Positions 46,587 through 62,489 of a stretch of 64,000 nt of DNA are shown here, piece after piece; within the stretch, counting starts at the first letter, position 1; every line of letters begins with the position of its first letter. Source of the stretch: Candidatus Thalassospirochaeta sargassi (lineage in GTDB: Bacteria; Spirochaetota; Spirochaetia; UBA9216); NCBI GenBank assembly GCA_028532855.1, contig JAQQAL010000044.1, positions 78,334 to 142,333 on the forward strand. The letters are read 5' to 3'. The notes below the pieces were generated by a model, which was given only the letters and a program-made list of their open reading frames with translations, ran no database searches and was not told where the DNA came from. Both the position numbers and the translations under genes were made by a program.

Positions 46587-47756
46587 ATGAAAACGACAAT
46601 TGTTACAGTATTGTTTACGGTTTTAATGTGTTTTGTTTCAGCAGCGGCTTTTGCAGCAGAACCGATTGGTCAGATAGTTTATATAGAGGGAATAGTTGAT
46701 CTTCAAAGAGACGGTGAGATTCTTGAGCTCTGGGATTCAGATATCGGGCTTGAGGTATATAACTATGATCTTATAGAAACCGGATACGACGGTTTCGCAG
46801 AAATTGAAATAACAAGTCATAGAACCCGTGGAACACTGGTTAAGGTTGATAGTGATACTGCATTTTACTTTGATTCAGCAAAAATGAACGGTGCATCAAA
46901 GACAAATATGACCATGATGTCCGGTTCTCTCTCCTTCAAGGTTCAGAAACTCACCGGTAACGAAGAGTTGAATGTAAGAACTGAAAGTGCGGTAATGGGT
47001 GTGCGGGGGACGGAATTCAACATACAGAGAGCCCCTGAGGGGTCGGTTCTTGTAACATGTGTTGAAGGAAAGGTTGCCTGTGAAGACGACAGGAGAATGG
47101 AACGATATGCTATGCCGGGTTCTGTTGTCGAAAAACGCTCCGGAAGTTCACTTTCAAGGGTTGATATTGATGTCGGCGATGAAAACCTCTACGGGGCATA
47201 TTGGATTGGAAAGCGTGAAGAGATCTTCCGCTCCGGAGCCGATACCTTTATTAAGGGCTATTCAGCGCAGTATAATAACTATCTTCCTCGTTTTCTTGAA
47301 GCCTATGATAATCTTCTTGCTGTTAAAAGCCAGCTTGAAACCTACGGTCTTGAAGAAAACCAGGGTGGCGGCGGGTTTTCCTCAAAGATGATAACCGTGA
47401 AAGCTGAGACCTCTGACGAGATGATAATGATGCGGAGTATACTCCCGCTTTTTGAGCATTCCTACTATGCTGTTCAGGTGCTTGAGAGATATCACCAGCA
47501 GGGAATAGGCCGGACAATGATTGATAAAAACTATTCATCAGATGATTTTTTCGAGGAATTTTCCAGAAGAAAGCTTGAAATTAAGAATAAACTTGCTGAT
47601 GTGCGCTACTGCATAAAGCTGTATATGAATATAAGCAGGGCAGCAAACCCTGGCGGTTTAGATGCACCTTCATTCTTCGATGATATGATGATGGGAGCTA
47701 ACCCCCTGGGTGCAGGTTCGATGCCGGAGTCCAGTATGCCTGCAAGTAGATTCTAA
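46587..47756 (+). CDS. Exported FecR-domain protein
   Basis: A 389-residue protein with a signal peptide (cleavage after AAAFA, about residue 23) and a FecR domain at about residues 30-170. The core is VRTESAVMGVRGTEFNIQ followed by CVEGKVAC. The C-terminal 200 residues are helical and Glu/Arg-rich, of unknown role, ending in a Met/Pro-rich tail. In spirochaetes stand-alone FecR proteins are periplasmic and not linked to iron signalling; none of the sigma factor or receptor partners is nearby. AAGGCGG before the ATG is a plausible ribosome site. The stop overlaps the alr stop (CTAA, 47753-47756). Confidence 0.82.
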   Translation: MKTTIVTVLFTVLMCFVSAAAFAAEPIGQIVYIEGIVDLQRDGEILELWDSDIGLEVYNYDLIETGYDGFAEIEITSHRTRGTLVKVDSDTAFYFDSAKMNGASKTNMTMMSGSLSFKVQKLTGNEELNVRTESAVMGVRGTEFNIQRAPEGSVLVTCVEGKVACEDDRRMERYAMPGSVVEKRSGSSLSRVDIDVGDENLYGAYWIGKREEIFRSGADTFIKGYSAQYNNYLPRFLEAYDNLLAVKSQLETYGLEENQGGGGFSSKMITVKAETSDEMIMMRSILPLFEHSYYAVQVLERYHQQGIGRTMIDKNYSSDDFFEEFSRRKLEIKNKLADVRYCIKLYMNISRAANPGGLDAPSFFDDMMMGANPLGAGSMPESSMPASRF

Positions 47757-48972: not shown

Positions 48973-49001
48973 TTGAAAAGCTGTATAAAAAGAGTTATAC
49001 T
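48973..49001 (+). promoter_or_regulatory. Promoter of the four-gene envelope cluster
   Basis: TTGAAA (48973-48978), a 17-base spacer, TATACT (48996-49001), then 14 bases to the ATG at 49016. The leader would be only about 8 bases and lacks a clear ribosome site. Divergent from the alr promoter. Confidence 0.55.
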
Positions 49002-49015
49002 AAACTAGTAAAAGT

Positions 49016-50938
49016 ATGCGTAAATTGTTGTTTTATACTACTTTAGCTCTCCTCGTTGCCCTGAGCGGCTGTACCGAATTTTCTTCATCCGGAACCGGAG
49101 CGGAAGATCTGGCAGTAGAGCTTGAGACCGTTGCGCGCGGCGATGTTGTGCAGCCGGGCGGAAGTATAGAACTCGAATATTCTTTTCTTGAAACCGGAGA
49201 AATAGTAAATATTCTAAATATTGTGCTTACCGGTCCGGATTCTGAGGTGATTGAGGAAATTCAGATTGAGGAAGAGCCGCTTCCGGGTTGGGCAGAACCC
49301 ATTGAGCTTCCGGAGGACGCTGATGAAGGCCTTTATTCTCTTCGATTTGATTTTTATTCCGATGAAGAACTGTTTTATACTGAAGAGCGTGAATTCTTTG
49401 TCTCAGTACCTATGGGCGGGATACGCAGAATAGAATCATATCCTCCAGTTCTTTATCCGGGCGGTGGTGGGCTGTTTAACGCGGAAATAGACTGCAGCAT
49501 GGATAAATGCTGGCTGCGATGGAGCCTTGATGATGAAGTAATAAGCGCAGGTGCAGCAGCAGACGGATTCGAAAGTATTGAGATAGTAGCCCCCGATGAA
49601 GAGGGTGTGTATGAATTGAAACTTGAGGTCTTTCCATTTCAACCGCAGGATGAAGAGGACTATGATTTCGAATCAGGCATAATCAGAGAAATACCCCTGT
49701 ACGTGAACAGGGAGCAGAAATCAGGAGTAAATGAATTCGAATCAGCAGAGGATTTTCATTCTCTTTTTCATTTCCGGGGAAATCTCATTAATTCGGCTGA
49801 TACCGGACTAACGGGAGTAGAAGAACTTATCCCCTCGGGCAGACCGGTATTGTCAGTGCGCAGCGGCACGTTCGGTTATTACCTCGATTCTTTTTCGGCT
49901 TTTGAAGCGGACAGTTTCATGCTGCCGGTGTCGGACGGTGTATTGCAGAGTTTTTCTCTGATGATGTCGATGATACCATTCGGGCTGGAAAGCAGCGGCG
50001 AGGAATCAGCCGAGCTTTTTTATACTGAGAGCCTTGACGGTACCTCTTTTTTTGCTGGACTGTTTCCTGACGGCAGGATTACGGCGGAGCTTAAAACTGA
50101 AGATGGTGTTTTTGAGTTCACCTCGCCTGAACCCGTAGTCTTTGAAAATATATATACCTCAACAGCGCTTTCGGTACAGATTGAAGAATCCGGGCTGACT
50201 GTAACTCTTTATGTTGATGGAATCCTCCTTGCTGAATCAGTTTATTATTTTGATAATGACACAGCTCTAATGATTAATTCCGGTAATGAAGAACTCTCCG
50301 GTTTTACAAGATTAGGCACCGAAGTGGAGATGTTGCTTGATGAGGCCGGCGTCTATTACAGTCAGAAGTTAGGTGGTGCTGTAATAGACCCTCTTCAGTT
50401 TAGAAGAGCAATGGAGATGGAGTACGGGAAATTTCTTATGTATGCAGAGGGTTTTGATGGAGATATCAGTGAATTGATTGTCAGTTCCGCAGAAACCCGT
50501 ATCGAAAACAGCAGTCTGATAATACCGCCCTTATCAGATGTTGAATTCCCCTTTCTGTATCCCGGGTATGAAGAGCTGGAATTCAGGATTGTAACGGGCG
50601 GTTTAGCAGAGGGAGATGCTGAAGCTGTATTTTTTGTAGACGGTTTTCAAGACGATATTGCAGAAGTTGATTTCGGCTCGATTATTGAATCGAACGGCCT
50701 TGTATCATTCAGTCTTATATTTCTGAAAGATTCCGTTAATCTTGCAGGCAGTGGTGATGAAGCTGTATTTGCCGGAGATTTCAGCGGAGTAGGTTATAGA
50801 ATAAGGAACAACAGCCCTGAAACAGTGATTGAAATAAAAAGTATATTGGTTATAAGAAAGAATATCAGCGTGTCTGATAATTCCGCAGAATCAGATTTTC
50901 CTGTGAAGCAGCAGACACAAGATAATATCAGAAGTTAA
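49016..50938 (+). CDS. Large lipoprotein, probable LamG/concanavalin-like domain
   Basis: A 640-residue acidic lipoprotein (lipobox ALSGC, Cys19). Residues about 30-240 read as two or three beta-sandwich domains of Ig-like type (VQPGGSIELEYSFLETGEI; YPPVLYPGGGGLFNAEI). Residues about 245-460 look like a LamG/concanavalin-type lectin fold (FHFRGNLIN, then FPDGRITAELKTEDG and LYVDGILLAES). The remainder is beta-rich. No named family is certain. First gene of a cluster of four exported proteins, 9 bases before the next. A surface-binding or scaffold role is inference. Confidence 0.7.
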   Translation: MRKLLFYTTLALLVALSGCTEFSSSGTGAEDLAVELETVARGDVVQPGGSIELEYSFLETGEIVNILNIVLTGPDSEVIEEIQIEEEPLPGWAEPIELPEDADEGLYSLRFDFYSDEELFYTEEREFFVSVPMGGIRRIESYPPVLYPGGGGLFNAEIDCSMDKCWLRWSLDDEVISAGAAADGFESIEIVAPDEEGVYELKLEVFPFQPQDEEDYDFESGIIREIPLYVNREQKSGVNEFESAEDFHSLFHFRGNLINSADTGLTGVEELIPSGRPVLSVRSGTFGYYLDSFSAFEADSFMLPVSDGVLQSFSLMMSMIPFGLESSGEESAELFYTESLDGTSFFAGLFPDGRITAELKTEDGVFEFTSPEPVVFENIYTSTALSVQIEESGLTVTLYVDGILLAESVYYFDNDTALMINSGNEELSGFTRLGTEVEMLLDEAGVYYSQKLGGAVIDPLQFRRAMEMEYGKFLMYAEGFDGDISELIVSSAETRIENSSLIIPPLSDVEFPFLYPGYEELEFRIVTGGLAEGDAEAVFFVDGFQDDIAEVDFGSIIESNGLVSFSLIFLKDSVNLAGSGDEAVFAGDFSGVGYRIRNNSPETVIEIKSILVIRKNISVSDNSAESDFPVKQQTQDNIRS

Positions 50939-50947
50939 GGATATTAG

Positions 50948-52264
50948 GTGAAGAAGTATCTCGTTTCAGTTTTATACGTCATAGTAATACTTATAGCTGC
51001 TTCGGCTCAGGAAGTGTCCGGGAAACAGGAGATTGCTGTATTTTCTTTGAGTTATTCCGACTGGTCCACTCCTTCCGGTGCCCTGGGTATTGTTGATCAG
51101 CAGATTATCGAGGTCCTTTCCAATATCGGCCGTTTCAATGTTCGCGGACTTGATCTAAGACTGAAAGCGGAGGATGTTGCCGAGTTTACCTCTATGGTTA
51201 GAGATGTGAATGAAGCAAACCTGGTAATCGATGACAAATACAGGCTTGGGGAGGCTGTTTTCACCGAAGCTGTTTTTGAAGAGCTTGTTGGTTCATTTAT
51301 AATTGTTATACCATCTTTGACGCATTATGATTCGCTGGTGGAAGCCGTCGATTCGGGTGCCCTGTGGCAGGTTGAACTTCAGACCTCCTTTTCATTTGTT
51401 CTTGTTAAGGATTCGTCCACTATTGCCCAGTTTTCAATCAATACCTACGGAAGCGGGGATACTCAAAGGGCCGCCACTCTTGATGCTGCAGCTGCGATAT
51501 CAGGACAGCTGCAGTTTGAGCTGAAAAAGATTGATCAATTCAGATTGAAATCCGGGATAATCGAAGTGCTTCCCCGAGGGAGGGTTATAATAGAGCTTGG
51601 AGAAGAGATGGGGGTTGTTAAAGGCGATGAGTTTTCAATCGTAACCACAGAAACCCTTGAATCCGGCCACGTTATCCAGAATAATTCTGGCCTCCTGGTT
51701 GTTTCGGATGTCAAGCAGGATGTCTCTTTTGGAAAGATTCTATACAATGACGGTGTGCCTGAACCTGGAGCGCAGTTGGCGGAGGTGCCGAGATTAGGAA
51801 CAGAGCTGTCGCTTTACGGTAATCTTCTTTTTGATATCGACTATCTTGATCTCTGTGGCGGTATTGTTGGAGTGAAATCGGTTTTTTCCCGGGGCTTCTA
51901 TGATTTCCGCCCAATTGCCGGCATTGAAATACCTTTTGTGGATGAAGCTACCGACAGCACTTGGCCTGGAATTCCGGTTTCAATCTACGGCGGTGGTGAA
52001 CTATTGTGGTATTTCGGCCGTTTTCAAATAGAACCTTCCCTGGCTCTGGGGGTTACCGGGCTGATACCGGTGGATGAATACGACGTTTTCGACGTTACTC
52101 ATTTCGGAGGTCGTCTTGAGCTGGCTCTTAACTGGATGGCAAGCGATAATTTTAAAATTTTCCTTAATGGAGGATATACATACTGGTGGGCCCCCACCGC
52201 AAGTACAACCGTCAGTTCTTACGGCGGGATTTTTGGCGGCCTTGGTGGTACATTTAAATTATAA
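50948..52264 (+). CDS. Exported CsgG/FlgT-like protein with C-terminal beta-barrel-like domain
   Basis: A 438-residue secreted protein (signal peptide to about residue 20, ASA/QE). An N-terminal CsgG-like part (EIAVFSLSYSDW, GIVDQQIIEVLSNIGRFNV) is followed by a small domain with GRVIIELGEEMGVVKGDEFSIV and a closing LVVSDVKQDVSFGKIL, the pattern seen in FlgT C-terminal and CsgG-associated domains. From about residue 285 alternating hydrophobic strands, rich in Gly, Tyr and Phe and ending GGIFGGLGGTFKL, suggest an outer-membrane beta barrel of about eight strands. GTG start with AAGGA upstream. Combination unusual; see findings. Confidence 0.65.
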   Translation: MKKYLVSVLYVIVILIAASAQEVSGKQEIAVFSLSYSDWSTPSGALGIVDQQIIEVLSNIGRFNVRGLDLRLKAEDVAEFTSMVRDVNEANLVIDDKYRLGEAVFTEAVFEELVGSFIIVIPSLTHYDSLVEAVDSGALWQVELQTSFSFVLVKDSSTIAQFSINTYGSGDTQRAATLDAAAAISGQLQFELKKIDQFRLKSGIIEVLPRGRVIIELGEEMGVVKGDEFSIVTTETLESGHVIQNNSGLLVVSDVKQDVSFGKILYNDGVPEPGAQLAEVPRLGTELSLYGNLLFDIDYLDLCGGIVGVKSVFSRGFYDFRPIAGIEIPFVDEATDSTWPGIPVSIYGGGELLWYFGRFQIEPSLALGVTGLIPVDEYDVFDVTHFGGRLELALNWMASDNFKIFLNGGYTYWWAPTASTTVSSYGGIFGGLGGTFKL

Positions 52265-52277
52265 ACAGGAGTATTTA

Positions 52278-53648
52278 GTGATAACCGGAAAAAAAATGAT
52301 TAGTGCCGTTTCTGCGGCGGCTTTGACAGCCTTGATATTAATTTTCTCTTCCTGTGCAACTATAGAACAGACACCTTCCGGCGGAACTGCAGAAGTTTCT
52401 GGTTCATCCGAACCTCTTTTTTACGCAACAGGAAGCGGAGAAACTTCGATACAGGCAATAAACAACGCGGCCCGGAATGCGGTCAGAGCTGCTGCTGAGG
52501 ATCTTTTAGGCGGCGCAGCGTCGGACGGTCAGCAGACGGAGCTTGAAGACTTTTTTATCTCCGTCAAAGATATTGAACCCTTTATTGTAAGCGGGAGTCA
52601 GGAGACGCTAGAGAGCCGAAGTGAAAACGGGTTTTATTATCATATGGGATTCAGGATTAACCTTGACGTGCTTGCGTTGAGGTTGGCTGATGCGGATATA
52701 CTCGGGGGTCAGATAGACGGACGCGAAGGAATCAGCTATCGGCTTGATGATCAAAAGCGACCGGCTGTAAAGTCGGCGGCTGAGAATAAAACTTCGACAC
52801 CTCAACCTGTCGCGGAACAGACACAGCAGGTACCTGTAGAAGAGCTTATTCCTGAGGTGACTGCTGAAGAACTCAGTATTATAAGGGATTATCTCGATTC
52901 TTTAACATATATGGTTTTTTATAATACCGATACTGAAACCGATGCTTATCTTTCGCGAACTGCGGTTCTTTCGGCTAATCGCTATCTTGAAGAGCAGGGA
53001 GCTGAATATGTCGATCTTTCACAGATAGAAAGAATCAAGGAAGAGCAGCGGATTGTGTATGAGGAAGAAACCGGAGAGGTTGTCAGCATGATTCAATGGA
53101 TAGCCCATAAGTTGAATGCTGATGTTTATATTGAGCTTTCCCTGAATACAAGTAGTCGTGCGGAAGACCGAAAATATTACGGTAGTGCGTCCGTAACGCT
53201 TAACTCCTATAATGCATCCACTGCACAGGGACTGGGATCTTCAACTTATCAGACCATTCCTCCTGCTTTCAGTCGTGTGTCCGAGGAAGATGCGCTTTCG
53301 AATGCTGTGTCATCGGCCGTTTTCAATGCGATGGATGATATTGTAGACAGTGTTGAAAATGAGACTGCGAAGGCTGCATCGGAAGGTTTTAAATACAATC
53401 TGATTTTGATGAATACTGAAGATTCAAAACAGATACGTGATTTTGAGAAAAAACTTGAAAAAAGGACCAGGAATGTTAAAAGGATTTCATATTCTCGTGA
53501 AGAGAGCGTTTTTGAGGTTTATCTTATCGGAGATATATCCGACCTGGAAGATCTTGTCTACGATACGACCGAAACAATACCCGGTTTAGAGGGAATCCTG
53601 CTTGTAATGCAGAGAGGTAATTCGATTATTTTTGATACAGGGATGTAA
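52278..53648 (+). CDS. Lipoprotein with LPP20/CsgG-like features, unknown function
   Basis: A 456-residue lipoprotein (LIFSSC, Cys26). Residues about 45-135 (ATGSGETSIQAINNAARNAV) resemble the LPP20/FlgT N-terminal pattern in which an exported protein repeatedly uses an Ala-rich helix over a sheet. Residues 190-330 carry a CsgG/TolB-N-like alpha/beta segment (YLEEQGAEYVDLSQIERI; LNADVYIELSLN). The end (ISYSREESVFEVYLIGDI) is another small alpha/beta domain. GTG start at 52278 chosen because AGGAG (52267-52271) is well spaced; the open frame extends upstream into the previous gene. Third gene of the cluster. Confidence 0.68.
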   Translation: MITGKKMISAVSAAALTALILIFSSCATIEQTPSGGTAEVSGSSEPLFYATGSGETSIQAINNAARNAVRAAAEDLLGGAASDGQQTELEDFFISVKDIEPFIVSGSQETLESRSENGFYYHMGFRINLDVLALRLADADILGGQIDGREGISYRLDDQKRPAVKSAAENKTSTPQPVAEQTQQVPVEELIPEVTAEELSIIRDYLDSLTYMVFYNTDTETDAYLSRTAVLSANRYLEEQGAEYVDLSQIERIKEEQRIVYEEETGEVVSMIQWIAHKLNADVYIELSLNTSSRAEDRKYYGSASVTLNSYNASTAQGLGSSTYQTIPPAFSRVSEEDALSNAVSSAVFNAMDDIVDSVENETAKAASEGFKYNLILMNTEDSKQIRDFEKKLEKRTRNVKRISYSREESVFEVYLIGDISDLEDLVYDTTETIPGLEGILLVMQRGNSIIFDTGM

Positions 53649-53650
53649 GT

Positions 53651-55105
53651 GTGAAAAAAGGACTTTTGATGCTGATAATTCTGGCAGCTGTATTTTATTC
53701 CTCATGTTCGACTACCCCGGAACAACAGCGCCCGGAATGGACTGTAAGTCCGCCCGCGGATAATGCTGAATATACTTATTTTCTCGGTATTGGTTCGGCT
53801 TCATCCGGCGATGAAGGAGCAGCCTCGGCTGAGGCGGAATCTTTAATAATTTCTGATATTACAAAGTATCTGGGTGTTCGGGTAACTTCTGATACAACGA
53901 CCACAGCGAGGGATGCATACGGCAAATTTGAATCCGGTATAGAATCTGCAGTTAGGGAAAAGTCCTCCGCAAGAATCAGCGGTCTCAGGCTCATTGAAAG
54001 ATGGGTTGAGCAGGTTGAATCCGGTGTAACTGTTTACATCCTTGCGGAATATGATACAGCTGAGCTGAAGGCTGAAAAGATCAGGTTGACGGAACTTTTC
54101 AAAGAAAAGCAGGAAGCTGTATCGGTTCCGGAAAAAGAAGGAGACAGCTTAGCGCTTGAGAAGCAGCACTACAGGGCGTCTGTTGCCTACATCAATGCTG
54201 CGCTTGCGGCATCTTCATCCGACCTTGAAAATGCTGATTTGAAATTTGAACGTAATATCACCAAGGCTCGGGAGTCAATTGAAAAGTTAAGTGTTGAAGC
54301 CGTATCCGGCCCGGTGTCGACCTATGTCGGTGAAGGTTTTAATCAGGACTTCATTGTTAGAATCCTGTCAGATGGTAATCCGGTGGAGGGGCTGCCTGTA
54401 ACCATAAATTATAAGGAATTGCTGGAGAACGGAAGAAAGACTGTTCGTACCCAAACCGTTTTAACTGGTGTCGACGGCCTGGCATCAATGAGGCCGCCTG
54501 CACCCGGCTGGGTAGGCTCAGAAAAGATCACATTCTTTCTTGATTTGCGGGCGGTTATTGAGCCGCTTGAAGAGGTTAGTTTTAAGCTTCTTCAGTATGT
54601 AGACGGTCTTGAGCAGGCTGTAAATGCAAAAAGAGTCTCATTCAGCTTTGATGTAATGTCGCGGGCGGTTGAAATTCCCACCTGTATTATGGTGATGGAT
54701 GTGGATAGAAGCGGTAATCCGCTTAATAAAACCGATACCGCGTCAGGGCTGCTTTCTGAGCTTTCAGAGGCCGGTTTTGATGTTTTTTTACTCCCGGTTG
54801 ATTACCGTATGACTGCAGTCTCGGATATCGAGCTTATAGAACTCGTACGGTCGCAGTACGGAAACATCTATGATAGATTTATCTTCGGAACCGCCGAAAT
54901 CAGCAGCTTTGAGGAAAGTGGAACCTCGGTTATTGTTAAAGTCACCGGTAAAATAAAGGCAGTCGAGCTGGATTCCGGTCGTATTCTCTTTTCCGGCTCC
55001 GAACAGAAGCGGGCTCGTGGTGGAAATAACGCCGCGACAATATCCGCCGCTTTCACAAGTCTTGGAAAAATGTACGGTGAAAAACTAGTTACTGATCTTC
55101 CCTAG
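53651..55105 (+). CDS. LPP20-domain lipoprotein
   Basis: A 484-residue lipoprotein (FYSSC, Cys19). Residues about 28-145 are an LPP20-type domain (PEWTVSPPADNAEYTYFLGIGSA, then an Ala-rich helix and VYILAEYDTAELKAE). A helical stretch follows at 150-220, then an Ig-like domain at about 225-310 (GNPVEGLPVTINYKEL, GVDGLASMRPP), and a C-terminal CsgG/LpoB-like alpha/beta domain (SGLLSELSEAGFDVFLL; SGRILFSGSEQKRARG). GTG start, 2 bases after the previous stop. Its TAG stop is shared with the opposing phosphodiesterase in one CTAG (55102-55105). Confidence 0.75.
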   Translation: MKKGLLMLIILAAVFYSSCSTTPEQQRPEWTVSPPADNAEYTYFLGIGSASSGDEGAASAEAESLIISDITKYLGVRVTSDTTTTARDAYGKFESGIESAVREKSSARISGLRLIERWVEQVESGVTVYILAEYDTAELKAEKIRLTELFKEKQEAVSVPEKEGDSLALEKQHYRASVAYINAALAASSSDLENADLKFERNITKARESIEKLSVEAVSGPVSTYVGEGFNQDFIVRILSDGNPVEGLPVTINYKELLENGRKTVRTQTVLTGVDGLASMRPPAPGWVGSEKITFFLDLRAVIEPLEEVSFKLLQYVDGLEQAVNAKRVSFSFDVMSRAVEIPTCIMVMDVDRSGNPLNKTDTASGLLSELSEAGFDVFLLPVDYRMTAVSDIELIELVRSQYGNIYDRFIFGTAEISSFEESGTSVIVKVTGKIKAVELDSGRILFSGSEQKRARGGNNAATISAAFTSLGKMYGEKLVTDLP

Positions 55106-59853: not shown

Positions 59854-61224
59854 TCAGCCGGTTGCTTCAATTTTTTTTAGCAGTTTTACCAGATCTTCTT
59901 TTTCAATAAGATCAATAAGCCTTGCTTCTACAAAGTTTTTTGCTCCTGATGAGAATGCGCCTGCTGAAATACAGATGCCGCGACCTGCTTTGACTTCCTT
60001 GATTTTCCCATAGAGATCACGAACTATCAGCTCTCCAACCTGTCCTGTGGAACGGATAAATCTGAAAATAATAACGTCTTCCCATTTCGAGGAACTGATA
60101 TCAACAGTCATGTCAATGTAATCACTCTGCTGTGATGCAACCTCCAGCACCTTGATCCTTGTGCCGGGGAATTGCAGTGAGATTAATTTACGGCACATGT
60201 TGATAAAACGGCTTTTATCTCCCATTAGAAATATTTTCAGGTTCAGGTTGGTGTCCAGTTCACCGTATCTTCTCAGCAGTATTGCGGCATCCTTATAATT
60301 CTGATTTTTAGCAACAATGTATTCTAGAGGTCCGATTGCATTGGAAATTTTTTCTGCCTTTATGTAGCAGGTTGCAAGTCTGTACTGGAGTTCGAGTTTC
60401 ATCTCAAGTCTGTTGTTCGGATTTTTTAGCCCCAGCTCGAAGTACATGGCGGCTTGATCATAGTTTCTGAATTTCATTGAAATAGTACCCGAATATATAC
60501 ATGCATGCGCGCCGTATCTGGCATCATTACGAAGTGAAGCGAACATTTTTAATGCTGCGTCGGATTGTCCCAGGTTATACAGGCATTCACCCTCAGCAAA
60601 AATAAGTTCCTTATTATCCGGATCCAGTTCAAGGGCTTTTTTAAGAGCCTCATGGGCATCGCTGTATCTATTCATCTTATAAAGACTTAAGCCCAGATAT
60701 TTATATGTAGAGGCATCTTCGGATTTCTGGTTTTTCGCCTGGTTCAGGAAACCTGCCGATTTTTCATAATTTTTTCTTAAATACTCAAGGTATCCAAGAT
60801 TATAGTTTATGGTAAAAAGATCGGGGTTTGTTGCTCTGGCAAGCATGAAGCTTTTATACGCTGCTTTGTACTGTTTTGAATTAATTGCACAGGTTGCGTG
60901 CTTCAGGGTTATGTCGAATTCATCAAGACTACTGTCGGTTGCGCATAGTTCAAGCAGTATATCAAAGAGCTTGAATGCTTTTTCGTAATCCTTTTCCTGG
61001 AAATGAAGTTCGGCAAGATATAGAAGAGCGGCAGGATCCTTCGGGTTCTGAGCGAGTCTTCTGTTTGCTTCCTTTATTACCGCATTTCTATCGGTGGCCC
61101 GGGCTTTTTCAAGTTTTGAATTTGATTTAGAATTCTTTCTACCTTTTATGACCAATAGGACGATAATAATAGCAATAACTGATGCAATAATTGGGATTAT
61201 TACGTAGGATTCCAAAATAAGCAT
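59854..61224 (-). CDS. Membrane-anchored TPR protein with a degenerate Mrr-like domain
   Basis: A 456-residue protein: one N-terminal helix (about residues 6-26), a basic linker, then about eight TPR repeats (about 50-320; clear ones include DAHEALKKALELDPDNKELIFAE). The last about 110 residues resemble the Mrr-type restriction endonuclease fold, with VRDLYGKIKEVKAGRGICIS, AGAFSSGAKNFVEARLIDLI and a closing DLVKLLKKI. In active Mrr proteins a Q-x-K strand carries catalysis; here the matching strand reads VIIFRFIR, so the Lys is missing. Probably cytoplasmic and scaffold-like. Promoter TTGACA-17-AATAAT ends 5 bases before the ATG. Confidence 0.75.
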   Translation of the reverse strand: MLILESYVIIPIIASVIAIIIVLLVIKGRKNSKSNSKLEKARATDRNAVIKEANRRLAQNPKDPAALLYLAELHFQEKDYEKAFKLFDILLELCATDSSLDEFDITLKHATCAINSKQYKAAYKSFMLARATNPDLFTINYNLGYLEYLRKNYEKSAGFLNQAKNQKSEDASTYKYLGLSLYKMNRYSDAHEALKKALELDPDNKELIFAEGECLYNLGQSDAALKMFASLRNDARYGAHACIYSGTISMKFRNYDQAAMYFELGLKNPNNRLEMKLELQYRLATCYIKAEKISNAIGPLEYIVAKNQNYKDAAILLRRYGELDTNLNLKIFLMGDKSRFINMCRKLISLQFPGTRIKVLEVASQQSDYIDMTVDISSSKWEDVIIFRFIRSTGQVGELIVRDLYGKIKEVKAGRGICISAGAFSSGAKNFVEARLIDLIEKEDLVKLLKKIEATG

Positions 61225-61319: not shown

Positions 61320-62489
61320 ATGGATAATTCTACAATAGGTATTAAAATAGCCGACGGGTCTTTTTTCCCCGTTCTTGAAGAGGACGCATCCGGGAAAAAG
61401 AAGCTTGTTCTGACGACCGTTAATGATGATCAGGGCAGTGTCCAAATCGACCTCTATAAAGGCAAGGGCGAAGAACTGCGAGATGCGCTTTATGTCGGAA
61501 GTCTTGTGATAGAAGACATTATGCCGGCGATGAAGGGTGAACCGGAAATTGAGCTGATAATCGGCATAGATGAGGAGGGCAATCTGAAGGCGGAGGCTGG
61601 GGATGCCGCAACTGCTGAACGTCAGAGCCTCAGTGTGAGTCTTGAATCACTTGATGAGGGTGATTTTTCAACCCCTAATTTTGAGCTTGATGATTCGGAA
61701 TTTGATGATTTGTCAATGGATGATATTTCAGAGGTTGATGAAATCATCAGTGATGAGCTTGCTTCAGACGATGAAGTTGAACTACCTGTTTTTGATGATG
61801 ATTTTTCGCTGGATGATGAAGAGGTTTTTCACGAAGAGGTCGCTCTTGAGGATGAGGCTGTATTTGATGAAGAGGTTTCACTTGAAGAAGATTCAGCCTT
61901 CGACGACAGCCTATCATTCGATGATGAACCTTCCTCCGTCGAAGTGTCGTCCTTTGATGATATGCCTGCATTTGACGAACCTGATGAACCGGAAGACGAC
62001 CGTTTTGATAAGAGGGAAACCTCTGAGGAACGAAAGCGTCGCAGTCCGCTGGCTGTTATTGTTTTGATAATACTTATTCTGGCCATTCTTGGATTAGGAG
62101 CTCTGCTTATTATCCGCGGAATGAACAGTGATTCTGTTCCTCCTCTTGAAGCTGATGATACTCCGGCCGTTACCGAGCCCGAGGTTGCAGCAGAACCCGA
62201 ACCTCTACCGCCTGAGCCTGAGGTTGTTGCCGAGGTAGTAGAGCCTGAGCCTGAGGTTGTCGCGGAACCTGAGCCGGTTATGGATGAGAAGGTCAGCTAC
62301 GACAGCCTTCCTCCGGAAGGTCACGGCGGCGGTGTCTGGTATCGTTTAAAATGGGGCGACACCCTTTGGGATCTGTCGAATTCCTTTTACCGGACCCCAT
62401 GGCTCTACGGCCTTATTGCTGTAGAAAACGGAATAAAGAATCCGGATGTAATTTACGCGGGAACCGATATCCTTATTCCAGAAAACTAG
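61320..62489 (+). CDS. Acidic membrane protein with periplasmic LysM domain
   Basis: A 389-residue single-pass protein. Residues 1-95 form a small domain of unknown type; about 100-236 are extremely acidic, with loose repeats of the kind EEVALEDEAVFDEEVSLEED; ERKRRS then precedes a helix at about 241-265. The basic side places the acidic half in the cytoplasm. Outside are a Pro/Glu-rich linker (about 275-325) and a LysM-like domain at about 338-388 (WYRLKWGDTLWDLSNSFY, ending IYAGTDILIPEN). LysM binds peptidoglycan. GAGG precedes the ATG; a TTGACA lies at 61273-61278 without a convincing -10. A transglycosylase-like gene follows. Confidence 0.8.
   Translation: MDNSTIGIKIADGSFFPVLEEDASGKKKLVLTTVNDDQGSVQIDLYKGKGEELRDALYVGSLVIEDIMPAMKGEPEIELIIGIDEEGNLKAEAGDAATAERQSLSVSLESLDEGDFSTPNFELDDSEFDDLSMDDISEVDEIISDELASDDEVELPVFDDDFSLDDEEVFHEEVALEDEAVFDEEVSLEEDSAFDDSLSFDDEPSSVEVSSFDDMPAFDEPDEPEDDRFDKRETSEERKRRSPLAVIVLIILILAILGLGALLIIRGMNSDSVPPLEADDTPAVTEPEVAAEPEPLPPEPEVVAEVVEPEPEVVAEPEPVMDEKVSYDSLPPEGHGGGVWYRLKWGDTLWDLSNSFYRTPWLYGLIAVENGIKNPDVIYAGTDILIPEN

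Follow-up and report, generated by a model that had tools for sequence, protein, structure and literature searches.

The four tightly spaced genes A, B, C and D at positions 49016-55105 of the window (the whole 64,000-nucleotide stretch that was analysed) probably encode a structural complex of the outer membrane, hitherto unstudied, and not a part of the flagellum or of a curli-type secretion system. Three of them encode lipoproteins; the fourth encodes a secreted protein in which two domains of known ring-forming types appear to be fused to an outer-membrane barrel. The order of the genes is ancient, and a diverged form of the locus is kept in genomes with neither FliF nor flagellin. We lean, tentatively and at somewhat less than even chances, toward an outer-membrane-anchored periplasmic scaffold or ring that is neither flagellar nor a secretion channel; the domain architecture is well supported, and the function is what we infer from it.

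The gene cluster and its signals

All four open reading frames are real and lie on the + strand, with gaps of 9, 13 and 2 bp between them. Gene A (49016-50938) encodes a beta-rich lipoprotein of 640 aa, while the other three start with GTG and encode a secreted protein of 438 aa (B, 50948-52264) and lipoproteins of 456 aa (C, 52278-53648) and 484 aa (D, 53651-55105). The start of C was taken as 52278, the mechanically called ORF from 52074 being over-long. Lipoprotein signal peptides were identified on A, C and D of the window and a signal peptide on B; by family, a lipobox pattern is present in 23/27 A, 34/37 C and 28/35 D proteins, in 18/18 products of an additional gene, X (see below), and in 1/43 B proteins. 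An earlier note, made from the sequence alone, had described these ORFs, gaps and export signals in the same way and had seen no curli or flagellar genes nearby; both descriptions hold, the latter for the neighbouring proteins scanned. It had also placed a single promoter ahead of the operon. A possible sigma-70-type promoter, TTGAAA-17-TATACT with 10/12 consensus matches, does lie upstream of A at 48973-49001 (+), but the region contains 17 such consensus matches against 11.3 +/- 3.9 expected, so that this site is not above chance.

All Pfam matches of the window proteins on their own stayed below the curated cut-offs: FlgT_C in B (0.0038), LPP20 and DUF4198 in D (1.5e-4 and 5.7e-5), LPP20 in C (0.049) and Laminin_G in A (0.043). 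An NCBIfam scan of A-D gave nothing convincing. The domain assignments rest on the protein families.

Two other stretches of the window may be mentioned here. Upstream, at 46587-47756, lies the gene for a secreted FecR-domain protein, weakly similar to leptospiral Lsa33/LipL45, which adjoins the operon in many relatives too. Downstream, at 59854-61224 on the - strand, is a gene for a TPR-repeat protein whose C-terminal domain is Mrr/restriction-endonuclease-like, adjoining one at 61320-62489 with HSP70-like and LysM matches.

Protein B

Protein B appears to be a three-part fusion, with a CsgG-like domain at about residues 25-200, a FlgT_C-like domain at about 200-280 and, at about 280-438, an outer-membrane barrel of about 8 strands that forms the C-terminus, an assignment that is well supported by family-level comparison and for which the decisive sequence evidence comes from distant homologues. 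Window B by itself has no PF03783 (CsgG) match, and its direct comparison with E. coli CsgG gave nothing, whereas the comparison of family with family, run with controls, did match. In hhalign, where pairwise E-values were read only relative to controls run alongside, the B N-domain scored 35-37 against 27 CsgG-type sequences from spirochaete genomes (23 control profiles at most 22.5) and 43-47 against the C-terminal domain of D (controls at most 22.5). The distant homologues L130, L131, L132 and L149 match Pfam CsgG above its cut-off, with E 6.7e-9 to 9.3e-11, and the first two match the Opacity porin above cut-off as well; OMP_b-brl was matched among them at 3e-3, and FlgT_C at 2.1e-5 in L149. 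Within the B family as such, FlgT_C is found in 26/43 members (best 1.9e-5). The FlgT_C region of B also aligns weakly (E 0.07) with TsaP, the LysM protein of type IV pilus secretins, but B has no LysM domain and no pilus genes lie beside it. The genome of the window contains five other CsgG-domain proteins (L001-L005), fused to other parts, one apparently with a formylglycine-type domain.

The barrel is indicated by several features of the C-terminal part. Over the last 150 columns of B the hydrophobicity alternation is 2.07, against 1.18±0.16 for shuffled sequences (0/2000 shuffles reach it, p < 0.0005); the alternation is absent from the N-half of B and from the C-termini of C and D, and a weaker effect is seen in the beta-sandwich parts of A. 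Residues 281-438 show about 8 alternating segments, and the C-terminal residue is F, L or Y in 19/19 proteins of a B alignment (A8). The best PDB match of the profile of distant homologues is NspA, an eight-stranded barrel (E 0.022). Single-sequence AlphaFold2 gave a pLDDT of 28.9 for B and 28.2 for the barrel part, and its models were not used. In the Opacity and NspA matches and in its C-terminal beta-signal, B resembles the eight-stranded barrels of the Opacity/NspA/OmpA type (PF02462, PF13505), but it differs in that CsgG and FlgT_C domains come before its barrel and no OmpA peptidoglycan-binding domain comes after it. The earlier proposal of a CsgG-like domain joined to a barrel is thus borne out by the family scores, the matches in distant homologues and the strand alternation.

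CsgG itself is the secretion channel for curli, and the CsgG-type domains in B and D could be taken to suggest a CsgG-like secretion or surface-assembly channel. Protein A, exported, large and of beta-sandwich type with a LamG-like part, would then fit as its exported or surface-attached client. However, B leaves no room for the TM2 hairpin of CsgG. Counted as residues between conserved landmarks (STGEIL to AIETG in CsgG), the stretch at that place is about 46 residues in E. coli CsgG, 24 in L130 and 15 in window B; in the MAFFT alignment, TM2 of CsgG is wrongly placed against a helix of B. The shortness of this stretch makes a curli-type pore unlikely, as does the barrel of B, which is separate and, with about 8 strands, too narrow for protein export. 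Neither csgE, csgF, csgA nor csgB was found among the neighbouring proteins scanned, and A is missing from the loci, discussed below, where the rest of the set persists in diverged form. A curli-type secretion function, one of those suggested earlier, is therefore disfavoured, and we consider a channel with A as client very unlikely.

Lipoproteins C, D and X, and protein A

C carries an N-terminal FlgP/LPP20-like domain, a central CsgG-like (DUF6175) domain and a C-terminal domain. The best PDB matches of its profile over the N-terminus are the lipoprotein 9yec_Fa (E 0.0048) and FlgP (8z5n, E 0.084); the alignment to FlgP runs through the region that holds the FlgP ring-forming insert, from which ring formation by C might be suspected. 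DUF6175 is found in 24/37 C family members (best 4.9e-8). The core of C scored 33.6 against the C-terminal domain of D (controls at most 21.6) and, weakly, 24-26 against CsgG (controls at most 22.5), and is thus probably CsgG-like. D consists of an N-terminal LPP20 domain (in 22/35 family members), a middle DUF4198/Ig-like part (DUF4198 in 11/35) and a C-terminal CsgG-like domain, which scored 36-40 against the CsgG family (controls at most 22.5). The two lipoproteins with LPP20- and CsgG-like domains of the earlier note are therefore recovered, with the CsgG-like domain probable in C and a FlgP/LPP20-like domain in both. A literature search found no paper for DUF6175, nor for an LPP20 family lipoprotein with CsgG.

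In many Spirochaetia a further gene, X, lies between C and D and encodes an LPP20-type lipoprotein of about 225 aa (e.g., L057:11219-11893 and 17 other relatives, alignment A5); an X profile search of the window's own genome found nothing. X scored 58 against the N-terminal LPP20 domain of D (controls at most 20; 98%, E 1e-13) and is homologous to it, and the best PDB match of its profile is Helicobacter Lpp20 (E 0.011). A second cluster of LPP20 lipoproteins (L104:5993-8940) is present in genome G036, at a place not linked to the pepT-mnmE slot described below.

Protein A has an Ig/MG2-like N-terminal part and a Laminin_G/ConA-like part at about residues 334-415. Laminin_G_3 is matched in 7/27 A family members, with E 3.4e-5 at best, and the A profile gave a match to the PilC minor pilin 7oa8 at its LamG-like end (E 6e-4). 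It had been called lectin-like; its nature as a lipoprotein partner stands, and the lectin-like part is weak.

LpoB is a CsgG-like outer-membrane lipoprotein that activates PBP1b, and C and D, as CsgG-like lipoproteins, recall it. An LpoB-like regulation of peptidoglycan synthesis from the outer membrane would also fit the alanine racemase gene that is often the divergent neighbour of the cluster and the Pfam LpoB matches (E 8e-4 to 6e-3) of distant B homologues, the only proteins in which these are seen. Those matches are, however, weak and below the Pfam cut-off, with CsgG scoring better; the comparison of C and D with E. coli LpoB gave matches to the signal peptide only, and there is no PBP gene nearby. 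Judged from these sequences, such a role in cell-wall synthesis is possible, though quite improbable.

Conservation and gene order

The gene order A-B-C-D is ancient. It is complete in 27 of the fetched Spirochaetia neighbourhoods, with B-C-(X)-D in 9 more, and the cluster is nearly always flanked by pepT (accompanied by fecR, a divergent alr or both) on one side and gdpd-mnmE-gidA on the other. The median intergenic gaps across relatives are 16 for B-C and 14 for C-D (counted where X is absent), with a looser 67 bp for A-B. Protein B is present in 7/7 genomes of the window's order; among the 148 genomes of the class, a single-sequence search found it in 73 and a profile search in 83, with E <= 1e-20 in 76 of the latter. 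In other classes of the phylum, B-C-(X)-D is seen, whole or in part, in L134, L139, L140, L142 and L144. Among 198 phylum genomes, B was found in 58, C in 52 and both in 44, where about 15 would be expected if they were independent, a figure that is not to be read as a probability, the genomes being related. Homologues that are scattered and never occur together are clearly not what is seen, and the locus is, as had been proposed, a conserved multi-gene outer-membrane one, its order and tight spacing being kept among relatives. A search of one literature library found no paper describing the four-gene set.

The set is not always obligate, as indicated by five Spirochaetia genomes (L019, L077, L079, L082, L083) with only A and B in the fetched neighbourhood, without C or D, and by family f49, presumably Brachyspira, where B and C lie at unlinked places and the C match spans only the N-terminal FlgP-like domain. 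In L072, B is inverted and apart, and L075 is without C; the locus L013 covers C and D only. The genes might simply be co-transcribed, with the barrel protein and the lipoproteins each serving the envelope in its own way and not as one complex, and the independent loss of A, C and X in some lineages, like the unlinked B and C of f49, could be read in this way. Against this, the order B-C-(X)-D and the tight spacing persist over phylum-level divergence, and related CsgG-like domains are common to three of the proteins; separate roles are, in our estimate, unlikely.

Some other genes are found beside B. In two loci from other classes (L134:5381-7714, - strand, and L144:11216-13540, + strand) B and C have between them a gene for a GAF-PAS-histidine kinase-receiver hybrid, which hints that the set may be regulated. 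A gene for a Borrelia P13-like membrane protein (L136:11312-11851) is immediately downstream of B in another locus, and in f49 a conserved exported protein of about 200 aa with no family assignment is encoded directly behind it (L130:9760-10356, L132:10119-10721).

Loci in genomes without flagella

The domains found here are those of FlgP and FlgT. A periplasmic-flagellum device had been suggested earlier; in that reading, the set could be an analogue of the H-ring or basal disk (FlgO/FlgP/FlgT-like) adapted to periplasmic flagella. The likeness to the Vibrio FlgT/FlgO/FlgP H-ring and the Campylobacter FlgP basal disk lies in the FlgT_C-like domain of B, in the FlgP/LPP20-like domains of C, D and X (mostly below curated cut-offs) and in the presence of outer-membrane lipoproteins in one operon. 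On the other hand, no FlgT_N/FlgT_M order was recognised, and B carries a fused transmembrane barrel. FliF is found in 121/148 class genomes, and all genomes in which the full B profile matches strongly (E <= 1e-20) have flagellar genes, except for one draft, G141, which is 58% complete.

Ten genomes with neither FliF nor flagellin nevertheless carry D, and nine of the neighbourhoods are readable around it, that of L088 being a cut contig. Where covered, D lies between pepT and gdpd, with mnmE-gidA, and C adjoins it in five (L085, L086, L089, L090, L091). In place of B, nearly all have a readable secreted ORF, B', which is about 370-460 aa long (truncated where the contig stops in L090) and ends in ..VTFRL, ..VTFRW, ..VTYRL and similar. 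Profile comparison of eight B' ORFs with B gave 98.6% probability and E 1e-15 over B residues 126-438. Neither A nor X was found in the flagella-less loci. Genome G090 does not count as a case of an intact cluster without flagella: it has no FliF match, but flagellins are present.

Because the flagella-less genomes hold B'-(C)-D in the same slot, the locus is kept without a flagellum and the set, in diverged form, is not flagella-only. This retention, as read from the sequences, argues strongly against a dedicated flagellar role. In addition, the scan of the window proteins showed no flagellar gene next to the locus, and there are flagellated lineages without B, such as family f20. A flagellum-associated envelope device is thus disfavoured, and we regard it as quite unlikely.

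A proposed complex at the outer membrane

The scaffold or ring that we favour could be put together as follows. The C-terminal barrel of B would sit in the outer membrane, with the CsgG-like and FlgT_C-like domains lying in the periplasm. On this base the lipoproteins C and D, as well as X in genomes that have it, may dock via their own CsgG-like and LPP20/FlgP-like domains. A, a large lipoprotein of beta-sandwich type, would be an addition to this core in Spirochaetia. In known systems, domains of the CsgG-like and LPP20/FlgP-like types form rings or disks beneath the outer membrane, and the proteins encoded here may likewise bind one another. FlgP and FlgT have an SHS2-type fold in common with Lpp20 and form outer-membrane-associated rings (PMC12222027), and in Helicobacter the membrane barrier is protected by a lipoprotein ring close to the outer membrane whose gene shares an operon with flgP (PMC11756786). 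As a ring or scaffold, the assembly might make the outer membrane stiffer or link it to the periplasmic space; the tether version is weakened because no peptidoglycan-binding domain was recognised in A, B, C or D. A more specific arrangement, a stacked heteromeric ring of the CsgG-type domains of the barrel protein B and the lipoproteins C and D that would be phylum-wide and both older than and independent of the periplasmic flagellum, seems to us rather doubtful.

The outer membranes of spirochaetes are poorly understood, and the outer-membrane parts encoded at this locus would be an ancient set of non-flagellar kind whose domain layout is clear. The occurrence of CsgG-, FlgT- and FlgP-type building blocks together outside curli and flagella bears on the evolution of outer-membrane rings, and the operon supplies named genes for deletion in cultivable spirochaetes. 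Some flagellated lineages seem to have lost the set, namely f20 and most of f24, which are probably Borrelia and Treponema.
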